Below, piece after piece: positions 7,298 to 59,944 of a DNA stretch of 64,000 nucleotides (within the stretch, counting starts at the first letter, position 1; each line of letters begins with the position of its first letter). The position numbers were made by a program, and so were the translations under genes. Origin of the DNA: Lentisphaerota bacterium (GTDB taxonomy: Bacteria > Verrucomicrobiota > Lentisphaeria > Victivallales > Victivallaceae). Under the pieces are notes generated by a model. That model had not been told where the DNA came from and ran no database searches. It saw nothing but the letters and a program-made list of their open reading frames with translations. The stretch spans positions 1-64,000 of the forward strand of contig SUWD01000010.1 in NCBI GenBank assembly GCA_015061685.1. Reading direction: 5' to 3'.

Positions 7298-9348
7298 TGG
7301 TCATAGATGTGAATGATGATTTCCCCGTTGACTTTGATGAGTTTTCAGTGGATTATGAGTTGTCCGGCAGTTGCACCATTGATCTGGAAAATTGCTGTCA
7401 GCAATTCTTTGCCCCCGGCGGCACTCTGGCACAGGCACAGGCGGTGAATGGACAAATTTGCGAGGAGCGTCCCCAACAGCTTGCCATGGCTCTTGCTATT
7501 GCCCGGGCATTGCAGGAAAACCGGAATGTCTGTATCGAAGCTCCCACCGGAGTCGGAAAAAGTTTCGCTTACCTTGTGCCGCTTATCTATCATGCGGTCA
7601 ACAGCCGCCGACCGGCACTTATTTCCACGGAAACGATCAATCTCCAGCACCAGCTGATCGAAAAAGACCTCCCCTTTCTGAAAGAATTGACCGGAGTTGA
7701 ATTCAATGTCGCTCTCGCCAAAGGCAGAAGCAACTACCTCTGCCGCCGCCGTCTGGCGATGCTTTCCGGTGAACAGCGGGATATGCTTCTGCCTGCCGCC
7801 CGGCTGGCTCTGGATGCCGAAAAGATCATCCGGGATCTGGAAAGCGGCAAAGATGACAGTTACGTTGACGGAGTAAGAGGCAGCAGCAGCATCTGGCACA
7901 TGGTCTGCTCCGAATCGGGAAATTGTGCCGGACCCAAGTGCGAATTTTACCGTAATTGCTACTATTTCAAGGCACGCCGCAAGTGGGATGAAGCAGATAT
8001 CGTGGTTGCCAATCACGCTCTTTTCCTCACTGATCTGGCGATCCGCAGAGAGAACGGCAATGGCAGTACCCTGCTTCCGGATTACGGGGCGGTGATGATC
8101 GATGAGGCACACACTCTGGAAAACAGTGCGGCGATCCATCTGGGACTGCATTTGTCCAGAGCGGCGATGACCGGGATGCTCAACCGCCTCTACCATCCGG
8201 AAAAAGCCAAAGGCTTGCTGATGCGTCCGGGCAGTGAGATGCTGGATATGCGGGCACTTGCCCAACGCGGCAGGGATGAAGTGTACGGCTTTTTTGCCCC
8301 CTATCTCAAAAAACTGGAAAAAGCGGAAAATTCCTCGGTGCGGCTCGATGAAAAAACTCCCGATGAAGTACCGGAAGTGCTGATAGAAATACTGCAGAAA
8401 CTTGCGGAAAAACTCAATAATTATGCCCGGGAGCAGGAAGATGAGAGTTTCCGGACGGAGTTGTTGAGTGCCGCAGATAAATCCTCTGTTTATGCGGAGA
8501 TGCTGTCGGTATTCACCTCGCGTCTGCAGGAGGATTCGGTCTATTTCGTTGAGGAGGAGCAGGATGCATCAATAAACTGCTGTGCCGCCCCTTTGAATGT
8601 GGCACAATTATTGCAGGAGCTGCTTTTTGACGGAGATATTCCGGTGATGCTGTGCAGTGCGACGATGACGGTTGCCGGTAAATTTGATTATTTTCTGGAA
8701 AGAAGCGGTTTTACCGGCGGCGAATTGCTCCGGCTGGACTCCCCCTTTTCTCCGGATCAGGCGAAATTGCTGGTTTCCGGCAAAATACCCGATCCCTCTT
8801 CGCCTCAATATCCGGAGGTGCTGGCGGAAAAGATCGCCGCCCTCGTAGAAGCTAATTGCGGCAATGCTTTCGTGCTTTTCACCAGTTATCAGAGTATGAA
8901 GTTCTGCCAGCAGCAGCTGCAGAGCCGTTTTGCCCTGCGTGGTCTGCCGCTTTTGGTGCAGGGAGACGGGATGACCAGATCGGAGATGTTGAGAAATTTC
9001 CAGATAACGGACAATGCGGTACTTTTCGGCACCGACAGTTTCTGGACGGGGGTCGATGTTCCCGGAGATAATCTGACACTGGTGATAATTGCCAAACTGC
9101 CGTTTGCTTCGATCGGTTCTCCCCTGACCTCTGCCCGCATGGAAAAGCTGGAAGCCGGAGGTAAAAGTTCCTTTGCCCACTACTCTCTGCCGGAAGCGGT
9201 TCTGAAATTCCGTCAGGGGGCAGGCAGACTTATCCGCACCCGGCATGATCACGGGATCGTGGCGGTGCTGGATTCGAGGATCGTCAGCAAGCGTTACGGC
9301 AGGGAATTTATCAATTCTTTGCCGTATAAAGTGGAATATCTTGACTGA
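7297..9348 (+). CDS. DinG/YoaA-type ATP-dependent DNA helicase (XPD-like, Fe-S)
   Basis: Superfamily 2 helicase of 683 residues. Walker A APTGVGKS is at residues 82-89 and the DEAH box (VMIDEAHTLE) at about 267. A four-cysteine Fe-S segment lies at about 200-220 (CSESGNCAGPKCEFYRNC). The C-terminal helicase motifs include CSATM, FGTDSFWTGVD and RQGAGRLIR. DinG-like enzymes unwind 5'-tailed duplexes, R-loops and D-loops in repair. ATG at 7297 overlaps the upstream stop by one base; a TTG at 7294 is less likely. It is the last gene of the 5363-9348 operon. Confidence 0.93.
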   Translation: MVIDVNDDFPVDFDEFSVDYELSGSCTIDLENCCQQFFAPGGTLAQAQAVNGQICEERPQQLAMALAIARALQENRNVCIEAPTGVGKSFAYLVPLIYHAVNSRRPALISTETINLQHQLIEKDLPFLKELTGVEFNVALAKGRSNYLCRRRLAMLSGEQRDMLLPAARLALDAEKIIRDLESGKDDSYVDGVRGSSSIWHMVCSESGNCAGPKCEFYRNCYYFKARRKWDEADIVVANHALFLTDLAIRRENGNGSTLLPDYGAVMIDEAHTLENSAAIHLGLHLSRAAMTGMLNRLYHPEKAKGLLMRPGSEMLDMRALAQRGRDEVYGFFAPYLKKLEKAENSSVRLDEKTPDEVPEVLIEILQKLAEKLNNYAREQEDESFRTELLSAADKSSVYAEMLSVFTSRLQEDSVYFVEEEQDASINCCAAPLNVAQLLQELLFDGDIPVMLCSATMTVAGKFDYFLERSGFTGGELLRLDSPFSPDQAKLLVSGKIPDPSSPQYPEVLAEKIAALVEANCGNAFVLFTSYQSMKFCQQQLQSRFALRGLPLLVQGDGMTRSEMLRNFQITDNAVLFGTDSFWTGVDVPGDNLTLVIIAKLPFASIGSPLTSARMEKLEAGGKSSFAHYSLPEAVLKFRQGAGRLIRTRHDHGIVAVLDSRIVSKRYGREFINSLPYKVEYLD

Positions 9349-35571: not shown

Positions 35572-36393
35572 ATGCGTAAGGTAGTAGCACGTCCGAATCC
35601 GACTGTCGTACCGGCTTTTCCCATGCCGGTGCATATCCGTTCAGCAGGGTACAATGAAGCACCGTACGGCTGGGAGGAGTATGAGGATCCCCGTCCTCTG
35701 GTGCAGATATTCTGGTGCATACAGGGGACTGCTGAATTTATTCTGCCGGATGGTTCATGGGAGATACGCCCCGGAGAAGTATTCATCCATCTGCCGATGG
35801 AAGTGCATCATCACCGTTCAACCGATCCCCGGGCATCATGGAGATATTACTGGTTTACTTTCGATGGTGATTATGCGGAAAAATTCATGCTCTCTTACGG
35901 CTATCCCCGGAAGAATATTTCCGGTGTGGAGTGTCCGACGGAATTGTTTTCCGAATTGGAGATCCTCGTACAGAAACAGACCAATTACGCCCGGAGACAC
36001 GCACTGGCGATCGCCGCCGAGATCCTCGCCAGAATAGGCGGTATGGATGACAGCACCCCGGTCGAATCTCTGATCCGCCGCTTCATGGCTCTGGTCAGAG
36101 AAAATATGCGTGATCCGTCAGTTACAGTCAATGATCTGGCAAAGAAACTGGGAGTACACCGGATGACGTTGAATAAGCACTTCAAAGAGGAGATGGAGAT
36201 GACTCCGGGGAAATATCTGGACAGCATCCGTCTGCAGCATGCAATGCGGCTCTTGCGGGATACGCCGCTTTCTTTGAAGGAGGTGTCGGAGAGATCCGGG
36301 ATAATCAATCAGAGTTACTTCTGCCGTCTGATCCGGGAAGCAACCGGGGTTTCTCCCGGAGAATACCGGGAAAAATTCCACTCACACCAGTAG
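35572..36393 (+). CDS. AraC-family transcriptional regulator
   Basis: Protein of 273 residues. The N-terminal cupin-like sensor domain (~25-120) contains EVHHHRST. The C-terminal ~100 residues hold the two helix-turn-helix motifs (VNDLAKKLGVHRMTLNKHF; LKEVSERSGIINQSYFCRL) and the family ending GVSPGEYREKF. It is divergent from the nine-gene carbohydrate operon and probably activates it in response to a sugar. The ATG directly follows a TTTGATAAAA repeat and has no clear ribosome site, so translation initiation may itself be affected by operator binding. ATG at 35623 is a possible later start. Confidence 0.88.
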   Translation: MRKVVARPNPTVVPAFPMPVHIRSAGYNEAPYGWEEYEDPRPLVQIFWCIQGTAEFILPDGSWEIRPGEVFIHLPMEVHHHRSTDPRASWRYYWFTFDGDYAEKFMLSYGYPRKNISGVECPTELFSELEILVQKQTNYARRHALAIAAEILARIGGMDDSTPVESLIRRFMALVRENMRDPSVTVNDLAKKLGVHRMTLNKHFKEEMEMTPGKYLDSIRLQHAMRLLRDTPLSLKEVSERSGIINQSYFCRLIREATGVSPGEYREKFHSHQ

Positions 36394-36463
36394 GCAGAGA
36401 AAAGCCCCGGCGGCTCTGATCCATCCGGCGGATGCAGTGCGAGGCAAGGTCGCAGATTTATCA

Positions 36464-36538
36464 AGAGATTGCCCGCAATGCACCACCGCCTCGTCGCGGC
36501 GAAGCCGGAAGTAAAGATTTTTCACAAAAAATGTGACA
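36464..36538. repeat. Element C, partial copy (right end only)
   Basis: AAGAGATTGCCCGCAATGCA followed by a divergent insert and the terminal TTTTTCACAAAAAATGTGAC. It stands directly left of a complete copy. The preceding bases (36394-36463) share the motif GCGGCTCTGATCCAT with 58668-58682 and hold no gene. Confidence 0.7.
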
Positions 36539-36552
36539 AAATCAAATTTTTT

Positions 36553-36829
36553 GATAATGTCCCGAATTTTGTGAAACCCGTAACAGAAGCTTATAAACAA
36601 ACATTTTTGTTAGCGTATAAAACATATCACATAAGTTGTGATTTGTCAAACCGGCAAGCACGGGTTCGATCTAACCGGTGGATGCAGTGTGAGGCAAGGT
36701 CGCAGACAAATCAAGGCGGATGAGCAGGAGTGTACTGACGTACATGACTGCGAAAACGTCCGCTGATTTGCCAAGAGATTGCCCGCAATGCACCACCGCA
36801 GGAAAGATTTTTCACAAAAAATGTGACAA
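36553..36829. repeat. Element C, copy a (MITE-like, about 275 bp)
   Basis: The left end, TAATGTCCCGAATTTTGTGA, and the right end, whose reverse complement reads ATTGTCACATTTTTTGTGA, form imperfect terminal inverted repeats. Inside are an ATCACA/TGTGAT hairpin and a long imperfect hairpin around GTACTGACGTAC (about 36710-36770). The element ends about 10 bp from the stop codon of the minus-strand lipoprotein gene. There is no coding capacity. Confidence 0.7.
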
Positions 36830-36839
36830 TAATAATTTT

Positions 36840-38885
36840 TTATTTTATCTTGAGCGAAATCAGCTCGTAACATGCCACCGGGATATCCGTAATCGCAACC
36901 CCGTTTTCATACCGGAAACTGACCTTTTCCCAGTTCCCCTCCGGAGTAAGTTTGCAGATACTCTCCGGCTCAACTGCACAACGGATGGCAAGATTTTCCA
37001 CCGGGTCAAAGTTGAGATTGACCAGAACCATAATGGTTTCACCGGCAGGATTTTTCCGGGTGAGAGCGGCGAAATTCTGCTCATGCTCCACGCTGAAATC
37101 CACCGGTCTGCCGTTGATTTTCTCCAATACATGGAGCATCCACAATTTTCTCTCCAGAGTGTAGGTATAGTTGGTGAAAATTCCCGTACAGAAACCGGTC
37201 GTGCAGACAGTGCCGCCCAATTTGTTGCGGTAAAGCACTGTTGCCGGAGCAACTTTTTCCAATTCTTTTGATCCCGACGACGGAGCATAGGCGTACCATG
37301 TCAGAATTTCAGCATCTTTTGCCGGATCGGTGAAAAGAGGAGTTGCTCCGGTTTTGGTAGAACGGAGCAATTTTTCCGGGGTATAATATTCCCGGTTGGC
37401 GAGGAATTCCTTATCCTCTGCCGTAACTCCGAGATATTCCGCAAAACCTCTTTTGGTAATGGCTTTCGCCGCCTGACCGTCGATCAGAACTTTGCCGGAA
37501 AGCAGCTGTTTGAGTTCCGCATCGGAGAAACGGGAGATCATCTTTTCACCGGCAAGCAGATAGATACCGTCTCTATCCAGCTCAAAGGAGCAGTAAAAGG
37601 GAATTCCATATACTGCACACATTACTTCCGCCCAGTTGCTCTCCTCCACAAATTTTTCATTCGGAGCAGTAATGTGCCAGTTGGGGAAGTTCTTGTGTCC
37701 CGGCACGATCAGACCGGTAAAAGAGGCATTGTTTGCTTCTCTGGTAAGGGTCTGGTAATAATTGCGGTTTTTGGCAAGAATATCAGTATAGCACCGGTTG
37801 ACCGGCAATCCGTAGGTATGAGCGTTGACATACCAGATTTTAGCTCCCTGCATCCCGGCCATGATGCTGGTGCAGAGTTTGGCGTGCATACTGGTTGCCG
37901 AGCGGCTGTACGGAGTCTGGGGGAAAGTGTCAGCTTCATCCAGCACCACCGGCACATCGGCATGTGCGGCACGCAGAGCCAGAGAACGCACCAGGACGAT
38001 CGGGAAAATTTTTGCTCCGACTTCCATGTAATTGGCGTTGCACACCCGCATGACAGCCGGATGATTTTTCCCGGCGAAAGCTTTGGCAACCTGATTGTTG
38101 AATCTTCTCCCTCCGGAGAACATACAGCTGCCTGCCGGGATCGCCGGATTTACTGAATCGATCGTCTTCCGGATAAGAGCTGCAACTCCATTGACCATCT
38201 CTATCTGCAGCTGGAGGAAAGTTTCAAAAACTTCATCTCCGGGCTTGGAATCTTTCACCGCCTGCCGCAACTCACCGGAGGTGAAATTCTTTCCGGTACG
38301 CTCATTGAAAAGAGCCACATGCCGGTGACAGAAGCACTCTGCTTCCGGGGAATAGGATCTTATATCGTCGTCTCCGAGCATGAAAACCGGATCTTCCTTT
38401 GCCAATTCGGTAACGAAATAGACAATATACTGCTGAAAATCCGGGTCAAGCGGGCAGAAGCGGGCGGCTTTACCATTGATATCGACCGCCCGGGTCCAGG
38501 CTTCTTCATTTTTGTCAGTTCTGGGCCAGTGCCCCAGCACACTCTGGAGGAGGACGCCGAGTTTCACTCCGGAACCGGCTAATTCCGCTTTCAGTTTGCG
38601 GTAACTGGCGATCATAGTGTCAGCCTTTTTCCGGGCGGGGAATCCCTCCGGGTGCAAAGTCATACTGTAAAGCACGATTTCATTGCCGGTACGCTGGTGA
38701 TATTCTATCATATCTCTGGCGGCGGCAGCTTCTTCGCCGATCGACATGGGCAAAATATTGTAAAAGGTGAATTGTGTTTTATCCATAATCATCTCTTTCT
38801 CTTTTTGGTTTTCTACGGTACTGACACACGCAGTAAGAGCCAGCATCATACCGGCAAAAAGCATATTTACAGCATGTTTTTTCAT
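36840..38885 (-). CDS. Glycosidase-like lipoprotein of unknown family
   Basis: Protein of 681 residues with a lipoprotein signal peptide (lipobox LTAC, Cys20). The body has a TIM-barrel-like pattern: MSIGEEAAAARDMIEYHQ, FMLGDDDIRSY, VVLDEADTFP with a possible catalytic acid, and AKIWYVNAHTYG. A beta-rich C-terminal domain follows (~560-681, ETIMVLVNLN). This layout is that of GH42/GH-A-like surface glycosidases, but no family signature was recognised. It probably sits on the outer or inner membrane and acts on an extracellular glycan. It follows the cupin gene by 6 nt, under the promoter at 39456-39484. Its stop codon abuts element C. Confidence 0.6.
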   Translation of the reverse strand: MKKHAVNMLFAGMMLALTACVSTVENQKEKEMIMDKTQFTFYNILPMSIGEEAAAARDMIEYHQRTGNEIVLYSMTLHPEGFPARKKADTMIASYRKLKAELAGSGVKLGVLLQSVLGHWPRTDKNEEAWTRAVDINGKAARFCPLDPDFQQYIVYFVTELAKEDPVFMLGDDDIRSYSPEAECFCHRHVALFNERTGKNFTSGELRQAVKDSKPGDEVFETFLQLQIEMVNGVAALIRKTIDSVNPAIPAGSCMFSGGRRFNNQVAKAFAGKNHPAVMRVCNANYMEVGAKIFPIVLVRSLALRAAHADVPVVLDEADTFPQTPYSRSATSMHAKLCTSIMAGMQGAKIWYVNAHTYGLPVNRCYTDILAKNRNYYQTLTREANNASFTGLIVPGHKNFPNWHITAPNEKFVEESNWAEVMCAVYGIPFYCSFELDRDGIYLLAGEKMISRFSDAELKQLLSGKVLIDGQAAKAITKRGFAEYLGVTAEDKEFLANREYYTPEKLLRSTKTGATPLFTDPAKDAEILTWYAYAPSSGSKELEKVAPATVLYRNKLGGTVCTTGFCTGIFTNYTYTLERKLWMLHVLEKINGRPVDFSVEHEQNFAALTRKNPAGETIMVLVNLNFDPVENLAIRCAVEPESICKLTPEGNWEKVSFRYENGVAITDIPVACYELISLKIK

Positions 38886-39827: not shown

Positions 39828-41087
39828 TTATGCCAAAATAAAGCGGGTACTGCCGCACTCTTTCCCGGTCAATTCGGTCAATGCCCACACCAGAGCATCC
39901 ATTCTGTCCGGCGAAGACGTTCCCGGCGAACCGGGTTTGAATGAACACATCTGCCCCTCCAATTCCGGAAATACCCCGGCATGATGAACGATCTTTTTTT
40001 CGTAGAATGCCGCCACCGGTTCCGCCCGGGCAAATTTGTCTTTGAATGCCCTTACCGCTTTTACTTTCACCGTATCATCCTCCCTCGCAAAAAGAGTCGT
40101 AAGCAATTCGCCGCCGTTATTCACCTCCACCACCAAAGTGTCGGCATTGAATCGGCGGTAAAGTTTTATCGCCTCTCTCACCCAGAGCAAAGGGGTTGAC
40201 TGCATACTGCTGTCTGCCAGAATATAGCATTGCCCATTGCGGTCGATCCCGGCGGCAACGATTCCGGTGAAGTCATTATTTTTGCCGGAAGTCACTGCCG
40301 GATCGACGCCGATGACCACTCTTTCCAATTCCGGCACTTCCCGGCACCGCAGCGGATCGATCATGGCGTAATTCCACAATGCTCCCTCATTTTCATCGAG
40401 CCACTGACCGGAAAGAAAACGTTTCCTCTGTCTCTCCGGGAGATTGGCGAGGGTATTTTCGATATAATCCGGAGGGAGATTTTCCCGGTTGCCCTCCGGA
40501 TTCATCTGCATTGCCGCATAATTCTCCGGGCATGGGAATTTCTCTCTGGTCACCGGGTCACACTTTTCGATGAATACCCGGTAACACCAGTGGCTTTTCC
40601 CCGGCGGATTGCAGTCATAATACGCCCGGTTGACCAGAAGCGGAACCTTCTGGGCAAGCCGGGTAAGTGCCGTCTGCACGCTGGAATAGTCCAATTCGGA
40701 ACACTCATTGAAGTAGATCGTGGCAAACTCCTTGCCCAGGATCTTATCTGCTCTCTCTCCGTCATCAAGACCTACCAGCCATATTTCCGAGGAGTTGCTG
40801 AAGTGAAAGCAGTTTTCCGCCTTGTTGAAGTGCCAGTGCAATTTTTTCCCGAAACGGCTCCGCAGAACTTTGGGCATGGTATCCATGCCGATCGAAGTTC
40901 TCGCACTGGCACAGTAACGGCGGATGACCGCATGGCGGCTGCCAGGTGTCCTCACCGCTCTCGCCGCCAAAGCACAGCACAAAACGAAACTTTTCCCGGA
41001 ACGGGAACCGCCGAAAAGCATCGTATGCTGTGCCGGAGATGAGAGCAGTGTCAGAGCTTCTTTCTGTATCGGGGTGTATTTGAACAT
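39828..41087 (-). CDS. Phage terminase large subunit
   Basis: Protein of 419 residues. Walker A GGSRSGKS is at residues 26-33 and a Walker B-type YFNECSE near 125-131. The C-terminal RNase H-like nuclease has IGVDPAVTS, VVEVNNGG and a final DRMDALVW, so both ATPase and nuclease residues are present. This motor packages DNA into proheads. A GAGGTG ribosome site lies upstream. Unusually it is the last gene of the cassette instead of lying next to the small subunit and portal. It is intact by eye, with no frameshift. Confidence 0.93.
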   Translation of the reverse strand: MFKYTPIQKEALTLLSSPAQHTMLFGGSRSGKSFVLCCALAARAVRTPGSRHAVIRRYCASARTSIGMDTMPKVLRSRFGKKLHWHFNKAENCFHFSNSSEIWLVGLDDGERADKILGKEFATIYFNECSELDYSSVQTALTRLAQKVPLLVNRAYYDCNPPGKSHWCYRVFIEKCDPVTREKFPCPENYAAMQMNPEGNRENLPPDYIENTLANLPERQRKRFLSGQWLDENEGALWNYAMIDPLRCREVPELERVVIGVDPAVTSGKNNDFTGIVAAGIDRNGQCYILADSSMQSTPLLWVREAIKLYRRFNADTLVVEVNNGGELLTTLFAREDDTVKVKAVRAFKDKFARAEPVAAFYEKKIVHHAGVFPELEGQMCSFKPGSPGTSSPDRMDALVWALTELTGKECGSTRFILA

Positions 41088-41108
41088 CTTTCACCTCGGC
41101 AGGAATTT

Positions 41109-41615
41109 TCAATCAACGCTGACTGCGGCGGCACGGCGGCGTAAAAAACTTTTTCTTCCGGCACTCAATTTGCTCATGACCCCCTGAAACAGTGAGGACA
41201 ATTCCGGATGCAGAGCGATCACAGAAAGTATTTTGCGGTGCATCGCCTGTCTTGAACAATTTCGCAATTCGCTCAATTTTTTTATATCGCACCTCCCATC
41301 CCCGGTCGAATCCGTGATGATCCGGGAGATCAAACCGGCAGTATAATCGTCCAATTCCAGCAGGTAACGGAAAAATCTGGCGAGCATACTTATGAAAATA
41401 TCTTTGTTCTTTTTCCGGCATTCTCCGGGGATATGTTCATAATCAGCAACTTCAGAAATGCGGAAGCTGTTTTTTTCAAAACTGCAGAGCTTACTGCGGC
41501 TGACCACCTCCCTTGCCGTGGCGGCATAATAGCGGCAGGAATCAAAAAATTCACACTTGGCACACGGATTATCCCCTTTGGGAAAGCGTCCGAAACAAAT
41601 TGGATTTTTATTCAT
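41109..41615 (-). CDS. Cys-rich, possibly helix-turn-helix protein of the phage cassette
   Basis: Protein of 168 residues; family not recognised. The N-terminus carries a Cys cluster (CFGRF...CAKCEFFDSCRYY, then LCSFE and ECRKK) that could bind zinc or Fe-S. The C-terminal third (IKKLSELRNCSRQAMHRKIL) looks like a helix-turn-helix followed by a basic tail. Directly upstream of the large terminase (21 nt), it could be the DNA-recognition subunit of packaging or a late regulator; both are inference. An AAGGAG site supports the start. Confidence 0.6.
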   Translation of the reverse strand: MNKNPICFGRFPKGDNPCAKCEFFDSCRYYAATAREVVSRSKLCSFEKNSFRISEVADYEHIPGECRKKNKDIFISMLARFFRYLLELDDYTAGLISRIITDSTGDGRCDIKKLSELRNCSRQAMHRKILSVIALHPELSSLFQGVMSKLSAGRKSFLRRRAAAVSVD

Positions 41616-41639
41616 GATTAACTCCTTAACTTTTTTGCT

Positions 41640-42053
41640 TCAGCCCCGAAACAGAGAAATACTGCCGATCGGCTGTTGAGTTGTACTTTCTGCGGAAACA
41701 GAATCCCCCTTTTTATCCGTCAATGGTGCGATCAATGCCGCCGCCCGCTGACCCAGCGGTGAATCCTGTCCGTTGAAACGGCAGGTATTCCCTGCTGATG
41801 TGAGGGTATTTATCCGGGTATAAGCTCCGGTCAGGTATTCCGGATTGAGCAGCAGAAAGATCGTCTGTTCTGCAATTGCCGCCCGGAAAAGTTCCTTTTC
41901 GATTGCCTTTTCCGGTTCATATCCTCCGAGAGCGGCAAGCACATCTCTTTCAGCGACGGCGGCACAACCGGAGCGTTCACTGTCACCGGCACTGAAATAC
42001 TCTTTTTTCAGTGGGTGATCGTTGAAAAATTGATCGATTTCCGTTAATTGCAT
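41640..42053 (-). CDS. Small phage-cassette protein, possible head-completion/connector
   Basis: Protein of 137 residues, unrecognised. It is mainly helical in the first 90 residues (QFFNDHPLKKEYF, then EKELFRAAIAEQTIFLLLNP), with a loose polar tail. Its position directly after the capsid gene is where head-tail connector or head-completion proteins usually lie. An AAGGAG lies 12 nt upstream of the ATG. The name rests on position only. Confidence 0.5.
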   Translation of the reverse strand: MQLTEIDQFFNDHPLKKEYFSAGDSERSGCAAVAERDVLAALGGYEPEKAIEKELFRAAIAEQTIFLLLNPEYLTGAYTRINTLTSAGNTCRFNGQDSPLGQRAAALIAPLTDKKGDSVSAESTTQQPIGSISLFRG

Positions 42054-42099
42054 ATAATTTCAGTCTCCTTGATTACAGAATTTTCAGCGGGCCGGAGGG

Positions 42100-42130
42100 A
42101 AGTTCCCCCCTCATTCAAAGGGGGGAACTT
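42100..42130 (-). other. Perfect 11-bp hairpin between the capsid and connector genes
   Basis: AAGTTCCCCCC (42100-42110) pairs with GGGGGGAACTT (42120-42130) around a 9-nt loop. No T-run follows on the coding strand, so it looks like an mRNA processing/stability or attenuation element that lowers expression after the capsid gene. Confidence 0.6.
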
Positions 42131-42141
42131 GCAAAAGCTGA

Positions 42142-43299
42142 TCAGGCATTGCGGAGAGCTGAAATCGCTTCAGCACTGCCCAGCAGATTTTTGATCCGGC
42201 AGCAACGCTGACGGACATTGCGGAATTCAAAGGTCAATTCACCGATGGCCACCCGGCGGATACCGTCAAAACCATTGGGAGTGGCATCCATATCAGTGAT
42301 TCCCCTGCCGGCAAGATTGGCAATGGCAAAACAGCCGGTGTCCAGCACCCAGGCATCATTGTCCGGCATGTCCGGATCTGCCATGATCGTCATGCCTCTG
42401 CCGTTGATCTCATTGACGATCACCGCCACATAAGCTCCGCGGCGGTCATCGGAACGCAAAATCTGGATGCGGTCACGGTACTCATTGGAGATCACTCTCG
42501 CCTGTCCCGGTGAACAGAGGATCTGCATCGGATCACCACCCTCTCCGAGGATCGCCTGGGCAGCATCATTGATCAGGAAGCTGTCCAGAGTGCTTTTGCC
42601 CGCATCGATCACCGGAACTCCGGACTGCGTGCCGAAAAAGTACAATCCGCCTGCTTCGCCGCGGGTATTAAGCGTTGCTTCCACCCGGCGGCCGAAAAGT
42701 GCCACCCGGTTGAGGTCACGGGCAAGATCGGCAAGAGCGAATGCCGTCTGACGGTTGAGCTGATTGTCGGCATTGCCGTAAAGATTTACCGCCAGAGCCG
42801 TACCGGAAAGGACGATCTCCTTGCGGAAAATCTGGGTCGCATTCCACTGGGCAGAGGCAAGATGATAGTTTTCTTCGCCGTCCCCGTTGGAAGTTCCTTC
42901 ATTCATCGGAGTGGAGACAATGATGAATGTTCCACCGTTTTCCGGAAGATCACCGGCACCGGAATACTCCGAACCATTGGCGGCAACCAATTCCAGTGCG
43001 GCAGAATTTGCCGTTACCGTATTGACCCGGAAAAGTGCCGGATTATCCTTGAGAGCAACCAAAGTACCGCTTTTCAGCTTGGCGGCATCTCCGGAAGTCA
43101 GAGTCAATACTCCATTATCAGCGGCACTGGCAGTAATGCCCCTGCCGGTGAGCTGGTCTTCCAGATACTCATGCTTGGCTGAAGCGGCATCAGAAGCCAT
43201 CCGGAAGTTGGAAATGAAACGCGGTTCATCTTTGATAACAGTGGACATCACATCAGAAAGATCACGTTTGCGGTTGGCGAAAGAGTAGTTGTAAAGCAT
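42142..43299 (-). CDS. Phage major capsid protein (DUF5309/SU10-like)
   Basis: Protein of 385 residues. The pattern ASAQWNATQIFRKEIVLSGTA, YGNADNQLNRQTAFALADLA, and later LCSPGQARVISNEYRDRI and IADPDMPD is that of DUF5309/SU10-type HK97-fold capsid proteins. Residues ~50-130 form an inserted beta-rich domain. There is no prohead protease in the cassette. An AAAGGA site precedes the ATG, and a 160-bp leader with a hairpin lies upstream. It would assemble the icosahedral shell around the scaffold encoded just before it. Confidence 0.82.
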   Translation of the reverse strand: MLYNYSFANRKRDLSDVMSTVIKDEPRFISNFRMASDAASAKHEYLEDQLTGRGITASAADNGVLTLTSGDAAKLKSGTLVALKDNPALFRVNTVTANSAALELVAANGSEYSGAGDLPENGGTFIIVSTPMNEGTSNGDGEENYHLASAQWNATQIFRKEIVLSGTALAVNLYGNADNQLNRQTAFALADLARDLNRVALFGRRVEATLNTRGEAGGLYFFGTQSGVPVIDAGKSTLDSFLINDAAQAILGEGGDPMQILCSPGQARVISNEYRDRIQILRSDDRRGAYVAVIVNEINGRGMTIMADPDMPDNDAWVLDTGCFAIANLAGRGITDMDATPNGFDGIRRVAIGELTFEFRNVRQRCCRIKNLLGSAEAISALRNA

Positions 43300-43331
43300 A
43301 ATTTTTTTCCTTTATTTTATTATATTTTCCC

Positions 43332-43359
43332 TTACTTCTTTTTACGGAAAAAGAAGTAA
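43332..43359 (-). other. Hairpin in the capsid gene leader
   Basis: TTACTTCTTTTT (43332-43343) pairs with AAAAAGAAGTAA (43348-43359) around ACGG, in the 160-bp gap between the scaffold-like and capsid genes. The rest of the gap has a GC-rich patch (CGCCCTTCGCTTCG) and T-runs. No other feature is seen. Confidence 0.5.
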
Positions 43360-43459
43360 GACAAGAAAAACGGGAAGTCGCGCCCTTCGCTTCGCTGGGG
43401 CTTGATCGTTTTTTTTACGGCTCCATTTTTTTATGGAATTTTGTCATATCTTTTATCGG

Positions 43460-43885
43460 TCAGACCGCCTCCGGAGCATGGTCGATGGACAATGCTATCC
43501 GGTTGATCCGGTCTCCGTGAATATCTTCTGCCGCCGATCCCGCCGCAGAAGCCGGTTGGAGAGCTGTTCCGGCACTGCTGCCGGGAGTGATCCTCGCTTT
43601 GAAACAGCCCGGAGAAACTGCAGCAAGCTGACCTGCGAATTCCCGTAAAGCCTCCGGATCATTCAGGTCGATATTCTTCCTTGCCGCACAGAAACGGAGG
43701 TATTCCGGATCGGTACAGCCCGTTTCAATGCTGATTTTTTCCAGAATATTCCGGCTTTTCAGCTCCTCATACTGCTGCTGCAAACCGGCATAGGCTTTTT
43801 CCAATTCAGCCAGTTTCTCCTCCGGGGAAAGGTTTTCTGTCACGCTTTCCTGTCCGGGAACGATATTTTCGGCTTCTTCACTCAT
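43460..43885 (-). CDS. Scaffold-like phage protein
   Basis: Protein of 141 residues, acidic with a predicted coiled coil at ~20-50 (PEEKLAELEKAYAGLQQQYE) and a low-complexity Ala/Gly/Ser region near 100-120. Small, charged, coiled-coil proteins placed between portal and capsid genes are usually scaffolds that guide prohead assembly. There is no protease motif. It overlaps the portal stop by 4 nt (ATGA). Confidence 0.65.
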   Translation of the reverse strand: MSEEAENIVPGQESVTENLSPEEKLAELEKAYAGLQQQYEELKSRNILEKISIETGCTDPEYLRFCAARKNIDLNDPEALREFAGQLAAVSPGCFKARITPGSSAGTALQPASAAGSAAEDIHGDRINRIALSIDHAPEAV

Positions 43886-45270
43886 AATTCACTCTCCTGA
43901 TTGATTTCGTTGATGATCTTCTCTTTTTCCCTGATCCCGACATACCCGATGTTGTCCAGAAGTTCCACCGCTGTCCTGCCGACTGCCTTGCGGTAGGATT
44001 TACCGGCAGATATCTCCGACAACTGGAGCAATCCGGCAATGCCTCCGGCAAGATCGTTGACCGCAAAACGGCGGTTGTAACGCACATCCGGCACCGCCAG
44101 GTCAAGATCGTAACGCCGCATAAGTTTCCACGCATCCAATTCCGCCTGTTCCAGCAGATCGGCTCTGGCAGCAAGAAATTGACTGACATTCTGGAAATCC
44201 CACGCTTTTGATTCGGAACTCTGTCCCTCACGGCTGTTGCCCTGTACCGCCAGACCGACGACATCGTACAACTCCTGTTTCAAGTAGCGGTTCTCCTCCC
44301 GGATCGTATCCGTGGCAATGCCGGAAGGACTGATGAAACGGCTGATCCCCTTTTCTTCGACCGATTCAACAATGGCGGCACTGCGGGCGACGATGGCGGA
44401 GAAATTCTCATCTTTGCTCTCATCGGCAGAAATTTTTCTGGCACTGCGGGCAAATGAATCTGCAACCACCAGCATACCGAACATCTGTTTGACCGTATTC
44501 ATCTGGGCTTCGGATTCGTTGTTCATGATCGCCTCGCTGATCCGGACGACATCCTCGAACCAGTGATTCGCCGCCAGACCGAATCCGTCAGGTTCGACCA
44601 CCGGTATCAACGGCACCGTCCCGGTCGGATTCACCCCGGAAGCGATCTCTTTTGCCCCGGAAGATGCCGCTTCAAAAAGCCGCCAGCTGTTGCGGTCATA
44701 AAGTCTTCTGCGGCGGTGTCTTACCGGTGGAGCAAACGGATCACTGCTGTCGATCTCCTCCTCGGCGACCAATGCCCAGAGCAGTTTGCCGTCAGCTCCG
44801 GTTGACCAATCGACCACCTGCAATGGCGAAAGGGTCCTGGCATAAGGACGCAGACATCTCTCTTTTGCCTCCTGCCGGGAGGGATTGCCGTCGAAAAGCG
44901 GCATTTCCACCTGGAGCCACGCTCTGCCGTAAACGTTGAGCAGCGTGGACAACTGCCGCATGACATCATTGGTACGCAAACCGGTGCGGCTCCAATCCTC
45001 GACCAATTCCGGATCGGCATTGCGGCGGATCGGGTCAATGCTCAAGGCGTACTGGGTGATTCTTCTGGCGATCGCCCGGGGGTAGTTGAAGTAATACGCC
45101 CGGCTGCGGCGTTCGGAGAATTCCAGATTGATCTCCGAAACGTGCCGGATCAACGCCTGTTCGATATACTCCCGGCCTCCGGAATAGGCTTCGCCGGAGC
45201 GTTTCCAGCGTTTTTCATTAGCGGTGTATTCGGCGTTACGCCGCTGAAAGATGTAGTTGTTATTGTTCAC
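43882..45270 (-). CDS. Phage portal protein
   Basis: Protein of 462 residues, the size of SPP1/SU10-like portals. It has an N-terminal RRSRAYYFNYPRAIARRITQY segment and the portal-like RAWLQVEMP and VVEPDGFG pieces, then AIMNNESEAQMNTVKQMFGM and a long C-terminal helical region. It should form the dodecameric DNA entry ring. The start codon is GTG with AAAGGA about 9 nt upstream. It lies between the TerS-like gene (24 nt) and the scaffold-like gene (overlap). Confidence 0.78.
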   Translation of the reverse strand: MNNNNYIFQRRNAEYTANEKRWKRSGEAYSGGREYIEQALIRHVSEINLEFSERRSRAYYFNYPRAIARRITQYALSIDPIRRNADPELVEDWSRTGLRTNDVMRQLSTLLNVYGRAWLQVEMPLFDGNPSRQEAKERCLRPYARTLSPLQVVDWSTGADGKLLWALVAEEEIDSSDPFAPPVRHRRRRLYDRNSWRLFEAASSGAKEIASGVNPTGTVPLIPVVEPDGFGLAANHWFEDVVRISEAIMNNESEAQMNTVKQMFGMLVVADSFARSARKISADESKDENFSAIVARSAAIVESVEEKGISRFISPSGIATDTIREENRYLKQELYDVVGLAVQGNSREGQSSESKAWDFQNVSQFLAARADLLEQAELDAWKLMRRYDLDLAVPDVRYNRRFAVNDLAGGIAGLLQLSEISAGKSYRKAVGRTAVELLDNIGYVGIREKEKIINEINQESEL

Positions 45271-45294
45271 GGTTTTTTTCCTTTGTTTGCAGTT

Positions 45295-45546
45295 TCACAA
45301 GGCGGTTTCCTCATCGCTCAAACTTTTCTCTGCGGCATCCTCTTTTTCCGGGGAACGGCTCTTTTTCCATCTCTCCGGGCAGCGGTTTTCCAGCCAGTAC
45401 ATTGCCGCTCTGACATCCGGCGGGACCGCTTTACCCGAAGCATCCTCGTAACCGGTGGCTCTTTTGAGCAGAGCTTCCTCGACCAGTTTCAGTAATTCAT
45501 CATCGTTGTTTTCCTGTGGTGTGAGATTGTTGTTGTTTCCATCCAT
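45295..45546 (-). CDS. Small terminase-like protein (short form)
   Basis: Protein of 83 residues. The core LVEEALLKRATGYE, then PPDVRAAMYWLENRCPERWK, follows the pattern of small-terminase C-terminal regions (AxGYE, FWLKNRxPxxW). The usual N-terminal helix-turn-helix is absent, so it is either a minimal oligomerisation piece or works with the Cys-rich protein at 41109. ATG at 45546 has AGGAAAGG upstream; ATG at 45603 would add 19 residues. It is the first gene of the leftward cassette. Confidence 0.6.
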   Translation of the reverse strand: MDGNNNNLTPQENNDDELLKLVEEALLKRATGYEDASGKAVPPDVRAAMYWLENRCPERWKKSRSPEKEDAAEKSLSDEETAL

Positions 45547-45742
45547 GATCGCCTTTCCTGAAAATTGCACCCCTGCATAATAGCCTGCTATTGTCAACAT
45601 CATTTTTGCATATTTCCTGCAAAATCCGGAGTAATCCGGCAGCGGAATAGATCCTCCCCGATGTTGAAATCAGGGGATCTTTGATTGATTTACCCTCATT
45701 GTCCATGTTTATTTTCCCAGATTTAATTTTTTCTGTTTTTTA

Positions 45743-45758
45743 ATTGCACGCTTGCAAT
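45743..45758. promoter_or_regulatory. Operator O1 (TTGCA-N4-TGCAA)
   Basis: ATTGCA-CGCT-TGCAAT, a perfect 6-bp-arm palindrome. It is the leftmost of three similar sites in the 430-bp divergent control region of the cassette, nearest the leftward structural genes. Confidence 0.75.
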
Positions 45759-45811
45759 CCAAGCGGCAAAAAAATTGTGAGGTGTTCAGGAAAGCTCACA
45801 AAACCCAATAT

Positions 45812-45829
45812 AATTGCACGAATGCAATT
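45812..45829. promoter_or_regulatory. Operator O2 (TTGCA-N4-TGCAA)
   Basis: AATTGCA-CGAA-TGCAATT, a perfect 7-bp-arm palindrome, 70 bp (centre to centre) from O1. Confidence 0.75.
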
Positions 45830-45863
45830 TTTCAAGAGCAAAAAAGAGAAATTTTTCAAAAAA

Positions 45864-45879
45864 ATTGCTTGCATGCAAG
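45864..45879. promoter_or_regulatory. Operator O3 (TTGCT-N4-TGCAA)
   Basis: ATTGCT-TGCA-TGCAAG, an imperfect version of O1 and O2, 51 bp from O2. It overlaps the likely promoter of the repressor gene (TATATT at 45891-45896). Confidence 0.65.
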
Positions 45880-45978
45880 AGTTTCAGGTGTATATTAACT
45901 TTTCGGAAAGTGTTTTATCAGCATTGCAGAAAGAGTTACGCTGTTTTTCTGCCAAAGGAGAATGAAAGGAAGCAGTCT

Positions 45979-46884
45979 ATGAGGATCGATGACCGGGTTT
46001 TACGGGCATTGCGTCTGGCGGTCGATGAGGCCGGTGACGCCAAAGAATTTGCCGCCCGCTGTGGAGTAAGTGCATCAAATATCTCCCGCTATTTGAGCGG
46101 CAAGGTGCGTTCCATCACCGATGAGTGCTGGGAAAAACTGCTTCCGGAGCTGAAACTGGATTCTCCCCCGAAAGCCGCCGGGACGATCACCAACACTCCG
46201 GAGTTGAGGAGATTCATCCTTGACCGCATGGAAAAAAACGGCGTCACTTCTCCGGATGCCTTGCGCCGGATGATTGGATACGATTCATCCCGTTCACTCC
46301 AGCGGCTCTTTGCCGGGGAGCTGAATTGGTTCCCGGATATGCTTGCAGCGGTTCTGGATGCCCTTGATTGCGATGCCGCCGATGCTCCGCTTGCTCCGGG
46401 GGAAGCGGCTTTACTGCCGCCGGGAGGTATTTTCCGGGATGGAGCGATGCTGGTACGGCCCTTGCCGGTAGTGGAGTGGGCGAATGCCGCCAGCCATCTG
46501 GAATCTCTGGAATCCGATACCGTGGTCATGCAGCAGTGGGATCCGGAAAATACTCCGACCGTGCCGGTGCCGGCAAATTCCCGGCGTGATACCCATGCTT
46601 TCCGGGTGCATGGGATATCCATGGAGCCGAGAATTCTTGATGATGACATCGTGCTGGTCGAGCCTGCGGAGAATTTCGATGCCATTCCGGACAACAAGAT
46701 CGTGGTCGTCCGTTTCACTGACCGGAGTGAAAATGCGGAAAAGGTGGTCTGCAAAAGATTCCGCCGCCAGAACAATCAACAGCTGCTTCTGACCAGCGAC
46801 AATCCGGAGGGAAAGATCATTCCCTTTTCGCCGGATGAGGTCGCCTGGGTCGGAATCGTGGTGAAAAAGATCAGCGAAATGTGA
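45979..46884 (+). CDS. S24/LexA-type phage repressor with two HTH-like segments
   Basis: Protein of 301 residues. A DNA-binding helix-turn-helix lies at ~21-43 (FAARCGVSASNISRYLSG), and a second HTH-like segment at ~90-114. The C-terminal S24 peptidase domain has catalytic Ser214 in HGISMEP and Lys259 in VVCKRF. This is the layout of CI/LexA-type repressors that self-cleave after RecA activation, so DNA damage should lift repression. ATG at 45979 has AAAGGA upstream; earlier in-frame codons run through the operators. It is divergent from the structural cassette and should bind the three TTGCA-N4-TGCAA sites. Confidence 0.88.
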   Translation: MRIDDRVLRALRLAVDEAGDAKEFAARCGVSASNISRYLSGKVRSITDECWEKLLPELKLDSPPKAAGTITNTPELRRFILDRMEKNGVTSPDALRRMIGYDSSRSLQRLFAGELNWFPDMLAAVLDALDCDAADAPLAPGEAALLPPGGIFRDGAMLVRPLPVVEWANAASHLESLESDTVVMQQWDPENTPTVPVPANSRRDTHAFRVHGISMEPRILDDDIVLVEPAENFDAIPDNKIVVVRFTDRSENAEKVVCKRFRRQNNQQLLLTSDNPEGKIIPFSPDEVAWVGIVVKKISEM

Positions 46885-48577: not shown

Positions 48578-48740
48578 AATGAGAGAGTAAGAGAGAGTAT
48601 AAAGAGAGAGTATATTGGTTATGGTTATGGTTATGGTTATGGTTATGGTTATGGTTATGGGTTGGATTTGTTGAAACTGTTTCAACAAAATCAACAAATG
48701 TTGAATTTGCTGACAAATGTTGGATTTGTTGACAAATGGG
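48578..48740. repeat. Low-complexity region with seven GGTTAT hexamers
   Basis: Three AGAGAGAGTA-type runs (48578-48612) are followed by seven perfect GGTTAT units (48617-48658). After these come GTTGAAAC-like palindromes and repeated TTGTTGACAAATG-type motifs to 48738. It is non-coding. A microsatellite such as this is prone to length change by slippage. Confidence 0.9.
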
Positions 48741-48927
48741 TAATGTCCCCAATTTTGTGAAACCCAAGCAGGAATTTGTAAACAAACTTTTCTGTTAACG
48801 TATAAAACATATCACATAAGTTGTGATTTGTCACCCCGGCAAACACGGGTTCGATCTAACCGGCTCGTCGCGGCGTAGAGCAACGAAGACGGAAGGAAAG
48901 ATTTTTCACAAAAAATGAGACAAAAAC
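48741..48927. repeat. Element C, copy b (MITE-like, about 187 bp)
   Basis: The left end TAATGTCCCCAATTTTGTGA and right end TTTTTCACAAAAAATGAGAC form imperfect inverted repeats. The internal ATCACA/TGTGAT hairpin is kept. It lacks the long internal hairpin of copy a, making it the shortest complete copy. It ends about 15 bp from the stop codon of the lipoprotein gene. Confidence 0.7.
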
Positions 48928-48941
48928 ATTTTGTTGAGAAA

Positions 48942-59592: not shown

Positions 59593-59694
59593 AAAAGAAC
59601 CTCGCTAGCCTGTCTGCCGCATATTATACGCATAAAAAGCAGAAAACGCAAGTCATAATAGAACAAAAATGCAAAAAAAACGTGTTTTTTTATG

Positions 59695-59944
59695 GATAAT
59701 GTCCCGAATTTTGTGAAACCCGTAACAGGAGCTTATAAACAAACATTTTTGTTAACGTGTAAAACATATCAGATAAGTTGTGATTTGTCAAACCGGCAAA
59801 CACGGATTCGATCCAACCGGCTTCAACCCGGCAAGCACGGATTCGATCCAACCGGCTTCAACCCGGCAAACACGGGTTTGATCCAACCGGCTTGTCGCGG
59901 CGTAGTGCAACGGAGACTGAAGGAAAGATTTTTTACAAAAATTT
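59695..59944. repeat. Element C, copy c
   Basis: The left end TAATGTCCCGAATTTTGTGA and a degraded right end GGAAAGATTTTTTACAAAAA enclose the conserved ATCAGA/TGTGAT region and, uniquely, three tandem 35-bp units. It runs into the stop codon of the AddB-AddA gene. Confidence 0.7.
59792..59892. repeat. Three tandem 35-bp units inside element C, copy c
   Basis: Units begin CCGGCAAACACGG at 59792, 59827 and 59862, each containing a (G/A)TTCGATCCAACCGG-like stretch. Copies a and b of the element carry this unit once. No spacers separate the units, so it is not a CRISPR array. Confidence 0.85.

Follow-up and report, generated by a model that had tools for sequence, protein, structure and literature searches.

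A phage-derived head-and-packaging cassette in the Victivallaceae, probably part of a gene-transfer-agent-like system

The stretch of DNA analysed here (the window) comprises positions 1 to 64,000 of contig SUWD01000010.1, from a Lentisphaerota bacterium of the Victivallaceae (assembly GCA_015061685.1). It carries a cassette of seven leftward genes with a divergent S24 repressor gene, and we think it probable that these genes form the locus for head and packaging in a particle system that descends from a siphophage, has been domesticated by its host lineage and resembles a gene transfer agent (GTA). An intact head and packaging set has been inherited, with tail genes elsewhere in the genome, and this suggests that carriers probably build virus-like particles containing host DNA. 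The original prediction had offered three options for the cassette. One of them, a domesticated particle or gene-transfer-like system, gains strong support from a mostly single copy number, vertical inheritance, purifying selection, dispersed loci and joint loss; the same lines of evidence disfavour the other two, a capsid-forming satellite and a very reduced prophage.

The definition of GTAs as viriforms lists six features (PMC9662315), three of which are found here. Protein similarity points to a caudoviricete origin of the proteins. The genome is fully endogenised, the head, tube and tip loci lying separately among chromosomal genes. Inheritance is mostly vertical, with co-diversification of system and host, subject to the caveat that the portal tree contains two domesticated clades. 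The other three features, packaging of random host DNA, a GTA genome that cannot be packaged whole and delivery to cells (PMC9662315), call for particle or transfer data, so we describe the system as GTA-like and not as a GTA. Given its dispersal in the chromosome, the whole gene set is unlikely to be packaged together.

The genes of the cassette are as follows.
39828..41087, minus strand: TerL, the large terminase (ATPase and RNaseH-like nuclease), encoded at the end of the operon, from profile matches and motifs
41109..41615, minus strand: Cys-rich/helix-turn-helix (HTH)-like protein of 168 amino acids with no assigned role, in a cluster common to prophage loci L049, L107 and L113
41640..42053, minus strand: connector-like protein, a head-tail adaptor candidate, from alignment, a structural model (predicted local distance difference test, pLDDT, 81) and weak fold matches
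42142..43299, minus strand: major capsid protein (MCP), SU10/DUF5309 type, from PF17236 (SU10_MCP, E 2.5e-46) and phrog_1328
43460..43885, minus strand: scaffold-like protein, from phrog_233 (E 0.08) and a conserved position between portal and MCP
43882..45270, minus strand: portal protein, from phrog_145 (E 2.4e-43)
45295..45546, minus strand: short TerS of 83 amino acids, from phrog_309 (8e-12); alternative open reading frame start at 45603
45979..46884, plus strand: S24 (CI/LexA-type) repressor of 301 amino acids, divergent from the operon, from PF00717 (4e-16), HTH_31 and phrog_4

Conservation and inheritance of the gene set

We compared 149 related genomes, of which 78 belong to the family of the window (Victivallaceae-type Lentisphaerota) and 34 to its genus; most are incomplete metagenome-assembled genomes (MAGs), and calls of absence depend on the sensitivity of the profiles. 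All three of TerL, capsid and portal are present in 64 of the 78 family genomes, mostly in single copy and with frames open. One genome has two of the three and 13 have none, although one of these 13, G005, keeps a 37-residue TerL fragment and its loss is called from a genome that is 83% complete. Extra copies lie largely in prophages (G021, G037, G039, G054 and G061). On the RpoB tree there are seven independent losses, and they are the same seven for TerL, capsid and portal, despite the genes being unlinked in most genera. When the capsid profile was run against 84,980 species genomes it matched only those titled Lentisphaerae, Lentisphaeria, Lentisphaerota, Victivallaceae, Victivallales or Victivallis, or untitled ones given as 'uncultured bacterium'; they come mostly from animal guts, together with aquatic and deep-sea sources.

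The gene trees follow the host. An RpoB tree was built from tblastn segments, and the TerL, MCP and RpoB trees were made with FastTree. TerL shares 18 of 33 splits with the RpoB tree, and MCP and portal each share 16 of 27, against averages of 0.17-0.28 and a maximum of 2-3 when tips were shuffled (Mantel, 0 of 5000). Only 2-4 supported splits conflict with the RpoB tree; there are no supported conflicts between the MCP and TerL trees and one between those of MCP and portal. Where dN/dS (the ratio of nonsynonymous to synonymous substitution rates) could be computed it was about 0.03-0.26 across all the genes, which is purifying selection, and it was 0.14-0.18 for the Cys-rich/HTH-like gene. 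Identity of MCP across the family is 57-87%.

Two ARRANGEMENTS are found in the family: the cassette of the window's genus, and homologues that are scattered in other genera. Within the genus the order S24 / TerS-portal-scaffold-MCP-connector-CysHTH-TerL is repeated in species after species. A search of related genomes for the block, as the original prediction had proposed, found it in some 28 species of the genus; the order did not vary among the roughly 15 loci inspected, and the recurrence of the block is therefore far beyond chance. Among the genus loci, S24 had no match at those of G006 and G026. Elsewhere in the family the genes form separate loci with chromosomal neighbours: TerL alone; scaffold, MCP and connector; and portal with a head-tail connector candidate of about 100 amino acids. 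The cultured strain zth2 (G043, CP071032; loci L055, L095, L096, L187 and L188) carries this scattered set on a single-contig genome, with TerL at 1.604 Mb, MCP at 1.774 Mb and portal plus head-tail connector at 1.786 Mb; the MCP gene spans 1774406-1775548, the portal gene 1785950-1787323 and the tubes 1776131-1777035. The near-complete G051 has TerL at 2.242 Mb, MCP at 0.569 Mb and portal at 1.858 Mb; in both genomes the scattered loci lie on single large contigs. Sister families (f4, f7 and f11) have distant TerL genes (L059-L066; 34-40% identity), mostly single and alone among chromosomal genes, with neighbours conserved in two species; scattering may thus predate the family. A capsid fragment is also present in the Victivallis type strain, Victivallis vadensis DSM 14823 (L264), the best-known cultured gut relative.

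Packaging, tail genes and control

All seven leftward genes and the divergent repressor were confirmed at their predicted positions, apart from two starts that were moved. TerS probably starts at 45546 rather than at 45603, and the S24 start was corrected to 45979, its frame being open from 45814 and the S24 proteins of relatives being about 300 amino acids long. TerL matches Terminase_6N (6e-18) and Terminase_6C (8e-19), the pair PF03237/PF17289, as well as phrog_979 (9e-64). Judged by eye, its Walker A motif (GGSRSGKS) and its nuclease motifs (DPA...DRMDA) are intact. Profile evidence for the scaffold protein is weak, and the call comes mainly from position and conserved synteny. The connector-like protein had no family match in profile searches, nearly all copies in the alignment end in RG, and its fold search gave weak matches to YqbG and phage neck proteins, none of them below E 0.1. 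Homologues of the Cys-rich/HTH-like protein lie near the terminase genes of related prophages.

The window's TerS aligns only to positions 197-268 of the 319 in phrog_309. Alignment with prophage relatives indicates that in the window's clade (G000, which is the window's own genome, G001, G004, G008, G010, G016, G020, G025 and G028) only the C-terminal part is left and the N-terminal HTH DNA-binding domain is lost; other relatives retain it. The TerS of RcGTA (gp1) is likewise reported to lack the N-terminal HTH, and loss of sequence specificity has been proposed for it (PMC6854486), while the TerS of FpGTA is described as having no obvious DNA-binding domain (PMC12946183).

The statement that no tail genes and nothing else phage-like accompany the cassette stands for the locus and fails for the genome. 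Related prophages, among them the G037:C10 prophage (L049/L185), and an IMG/VR contig (L268; UViG_2786546706_000002) carry these head genes too, and behind them come genes for connector, neck, tube, tape measure and tip. Profiles built from the tail genes of these prophages and the phage contig found one tail-tube homologue (G000:C22:323288-323701, E 1.6e-13) and one tail-tip homologue (G000:C24:17265-18089, E 4.9e-35) in the window's genome. The tube model has a pLDDT of 89 and all its top fold matches are tail-tube or Hcp structures, including the RcGTA tube (6tba); in several species the tube gene lies beside one and the same chromosomal gene. The tip protein is found in 31 of the 34 genus genomes, the window's included, and in several species its gene is followed by further tip genes in phage order. 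The profile of the connector protein of about 100 amino acids matched many genomes and gave no match in the window's own. The portal and tail-tip profiles had no sequence match in the PDB. Two genus members, G023 and G030, have no match to TerL, MCP or portal, yet they carry a connector or tube homologue and a tip gene; this reflects either assembly gaps or tail parts that have outlived the head.

The same phages account for the gene order. TerL stands last in the cassette, an order that had been called unusual; in the G037 prophage the order is TerS-portal-MCP-connector-CysHTH-TerL, with the tail genes next. The Victivallaceae siphophages and prophages (L049/L185 and L268) thus share homologous head genes in the same order with the cassette, and homologous tube, connector and tip genes, but they are contiguous, with neck, tape measure and tail, and they do not have the cassette operator; in the prophages examined, TerS retains the HTH, unlike that of the window's clade. 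Searches of phage databases gave identities of only about 25-30%. Single-protein scans of IMG/VR and a tape-measure scan of it found nothing, whereas an alignment query did find a match.

The gap between S24 and TerS contains the following palindromes.
45743..45758, no strand: operator copy 1, ATTGCACGCTTGCAAT; within the window's genome, exact sites are confined to the cassette
45813..45828, no strand: operator copy 2, ATTGCACGAATGCAAT; within the window's genome, exact sites are confined to the cassette
45864..45879, no strand: a third palindrome, ATTGCTTGCATGCAAG, which resembles the operator in degenerate form and is conserved across species

The pattern ATTGCA-N4-TGCAAT, present as two exact copies in the gap, is conserved across species. 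Exact sites occur in 23 of the 34 genus genomes, at the cassette only save for two in G029; a control pattern gave 0. The two in G029 (C34:261-276 and 9329-9344), 9 kb apart, are the sole exact copies outside the cassette in the 34 genomes and could mark another S24-controlled element. We considered the operator as a switch common to the tube gene and rejected it, there being no exact or 2-mismatch site at the tube locus. The pattern also has no copy in the related prophage and phage loci L049, L107, L113 and L268. Its absence from these loci and from the tube locus suggests that S24 most likely controls only itself and the head operon.

These components would fit together in the following way. 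The S24 repressor would bind the operators between S24 and TerS and keep the operon off until it is inactivated, probably by self-cleavage, whereupon the operon would be expressed. Portal, scaffold and capsid protein would build the head, as their families imply. With a TerS that has lost its sequence-recognition domain, TerL may package host DNA non-specifically, on the precedent of RcGTA. The connector-like protein and the unlinked tail-tube and tail-tip proteins would complete the particle, and particles would leave the cell and deliver host DNA to kin.

Chromosomal-type genes had been predicted at both ends of the cassette, and they are ordinary ones: a ureidoglycolate-lyase-like gene and a sodium:solute symporter gene. 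No integrase was found in the flanks examined, and no direct repeats bracketing the cassette were found. One further feature lies inside the head operon.
43331..43415, no strand: copy of a dispersed, hairpin-forming genome repeat between the scaffold and capsid genes, not phage-specific

This repeat, of roughly 80 bp, has about 20 further copies in the genome. An intergenic repeat family occurs in the window at 36393-36845, 48741-48937, 59687-59820 and 62-132, and on other contigs and in relatives, one copy lying within the S24-TerS gap of G020 (L043). Near the end of the symporter gene, at 48600-48700, is a short tandem repeat with frames reading ITITIT and HNHNHN.

Known systems and rival explanations

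Among known systems RcGTA (Rhodogtaviriformidae) is similar in being siphophage-derived, vertically inherited and spread over several chromosomal loci, with a short TerS that lacks the N-terminal HTH (PMC6854486, PMC9662315) and a tube whose fold is matched by the tube model from the window's genome. It belongs to another phylum and has a bias to cheap amino acids that is absent or slight here, whereas the present system has an SU10-type capsid, an S24 repressor with its own operators and tail genes apart from the head genes. FpGTA of Faecalibacterium is also from a gut anaerobe and has a head/packaging operon, of TerS, TerL, portal, scaffold and capsid, separate from a second operon for tail and lysis (PMC12946183). 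It is podovirus-like and from the Firmicutes, its lysis genes are known and its particles and packaged host DNA were shown by experiment (PMC12946183); the system described here, in contrast to both, is known from its genes. BhGTA/VSH-1 of Brachyspira has a single terL outside its main structural cluster and co-diversifies with its host (PMC9662315), but that host is of an unrelated phylum and the 16 kb structural cluster has validated genes, whereas in the Victivallaceae other genera scatter nearly every head gene.

Capsid-forming phage-inducible chromosomal islands (cf-PICIs) have head and packaging genes without tail genes, and they are mobile, with an integrase and attachment sites. The cassette differs in showing neither integrase nor attachment sites and in being vertically inherited, with trees congruent with those of the host. 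Nor does it have, side by side, the genes for head, tail, lysis, replication and integration that a functional temperate phage would carry.

Several observations weigh against a GTA-like reading. In the portal tree, a grouping of all domesticated copies into one clade free of prophages is rejected (p 1.4e-4): the genus cassette forms one clade beside the L268/G037-type siphophages and the scattered copies mostly form another. It is therefore likely that exaptation happened twice, or once together with a replacement, and the tree suggests a separate, though related, exaptation for the cassette and for the scattered arrangement. A bias to cheap amino acids of the RcGTA type is absent or slight, at 4.96 carbons per residue in TerL against 4.96 in prophages and 4.65 against 4.72 in MCP, by a simple measure with few prophages. 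The chromosomal flanks vary between species, so the position of the cassette is not fixed. One small genome (G006, 1.9 Mb) has a broken capsid gene (L052; G006:C25:32883-33889), with residues ~60-105 absent and a frame change, which could reflect either true decay or faulty assembly. Neck-protein profiles matched only prophages and a few outgroup genomes, with no match in the window's genome, and no tape measure, lysis gene or receptor-binding protein was identified there, so the set may be incomplete or heads-only. The tube gene has no operator, and shared control by S24 is accordingly not supported. Finally, most genomes are incomplete MAGs.

The explanation that competes best, although we think it unlikely, is a domesticated particle with a role other than transfer: PBSX-like killing, or heads whose packaging or destruction of DNA benefits the host in some other way, with no delivery. 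Vertical inheritance and selection fit it equally well, the delivery parts are identified only in part, and the same alternative was raised for FpGTA (PMC12946183). The retained tube and tip genes and the GTA-type TerS exceed the needs of an empty head, however, and a pure tailocin would need no TerL, portal or capsid. We regard as highly improbable a capsid-forming satellite that borrows tails from a helper siphophage as cf-PICIs do. Head genes and a repressor with no tail genes adjacent, in a family where related siphophages with tails occur, are what it would predict; but neither integrase nor bracketing repeats were found, the set is near-universal, mostly once per genome and host-congruent in its trees, homologous genes are scattered in other genera, and the genome has tail-tube and tail-tip genes of its own.

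A reduced or decaying prophage remnant has been largely refuted and is the least credible of the alternatives. Siphophage descent is clear, the head order is that of the G037 prophage and L268, and G006 has its broken capsid gene. Nearly all carriers nevertheless have intact frames with dN/dS well below 1, the operators are conserved, and there are seven joint losses instead of piecemeal decay. The original prediction had reckoned with relatives carrying the same locus with tails and with a copy that was merely deleted or inactivated: the outcome is mixed, since related siphophages do carry the head genes with tails, but the tail-less cassette is no recent deletion, being conserved across the genus, and its genes are not decaying. 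It is likewise very doubtful that the cassette is a phage-interference or immunity locus, in which the repressor or the homologues of phage head proteins would keep siphophages of the same lineage from infecting. Such siphophages do infect the family (L268 and the G037 prophage), but the operator pattern is absent from the four related loci, and a whole packaging set kept under selection exceeds what interference needs.

Strain zth2 and the family

Strain zth2 is reported to release hexagonal and icosahedral particles when grown on polysaccharides, without lysis, and its phage-associated genes are induced 4- to 200-fold on polysaccharide; the assembled zth2 phage genomes lie outside the chromosome (PMC11361711). 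The published inducers are laminarin and starch, and zth2 transcriptome data are available under PRJNA946146/PRJNA756144. The strain also has two tandem tube paralogues beside its capsid gene and two tube-like proteins of about 300 amino acids. A broader and decidedly tentative reading, which we hold to be possible but on balance doubtful, is that the Victivallaceae have a family-wide GTA of ancient origin, that its scattered head, tube and tip genes work together, and that in one genus it was re-founded as an S24-controlled head operon. If this is true, a family-wide GTA would account for the zth2 particles, whose published phage genomes are non-chromosomal.

The number of known GTAs is small, and it was only in 2026 that one was first described from the human gut microbiome (PMC12946183). 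Text searches of the literature outside subscription papers and preprints found no report of a GTA for the Lentisphaerae or the Planctomycetes-Verrucomicrobia-Chlamydiae (PVC) group. The present genes offer a candidate GTA-like system from a different phylum that is conserved throughout a family, and a concrete reading of the particles of zth2. Their scattering, almost gene by gene, illustrates the extent to which a domesticated phage can be dismantled while selection holds its genes together.

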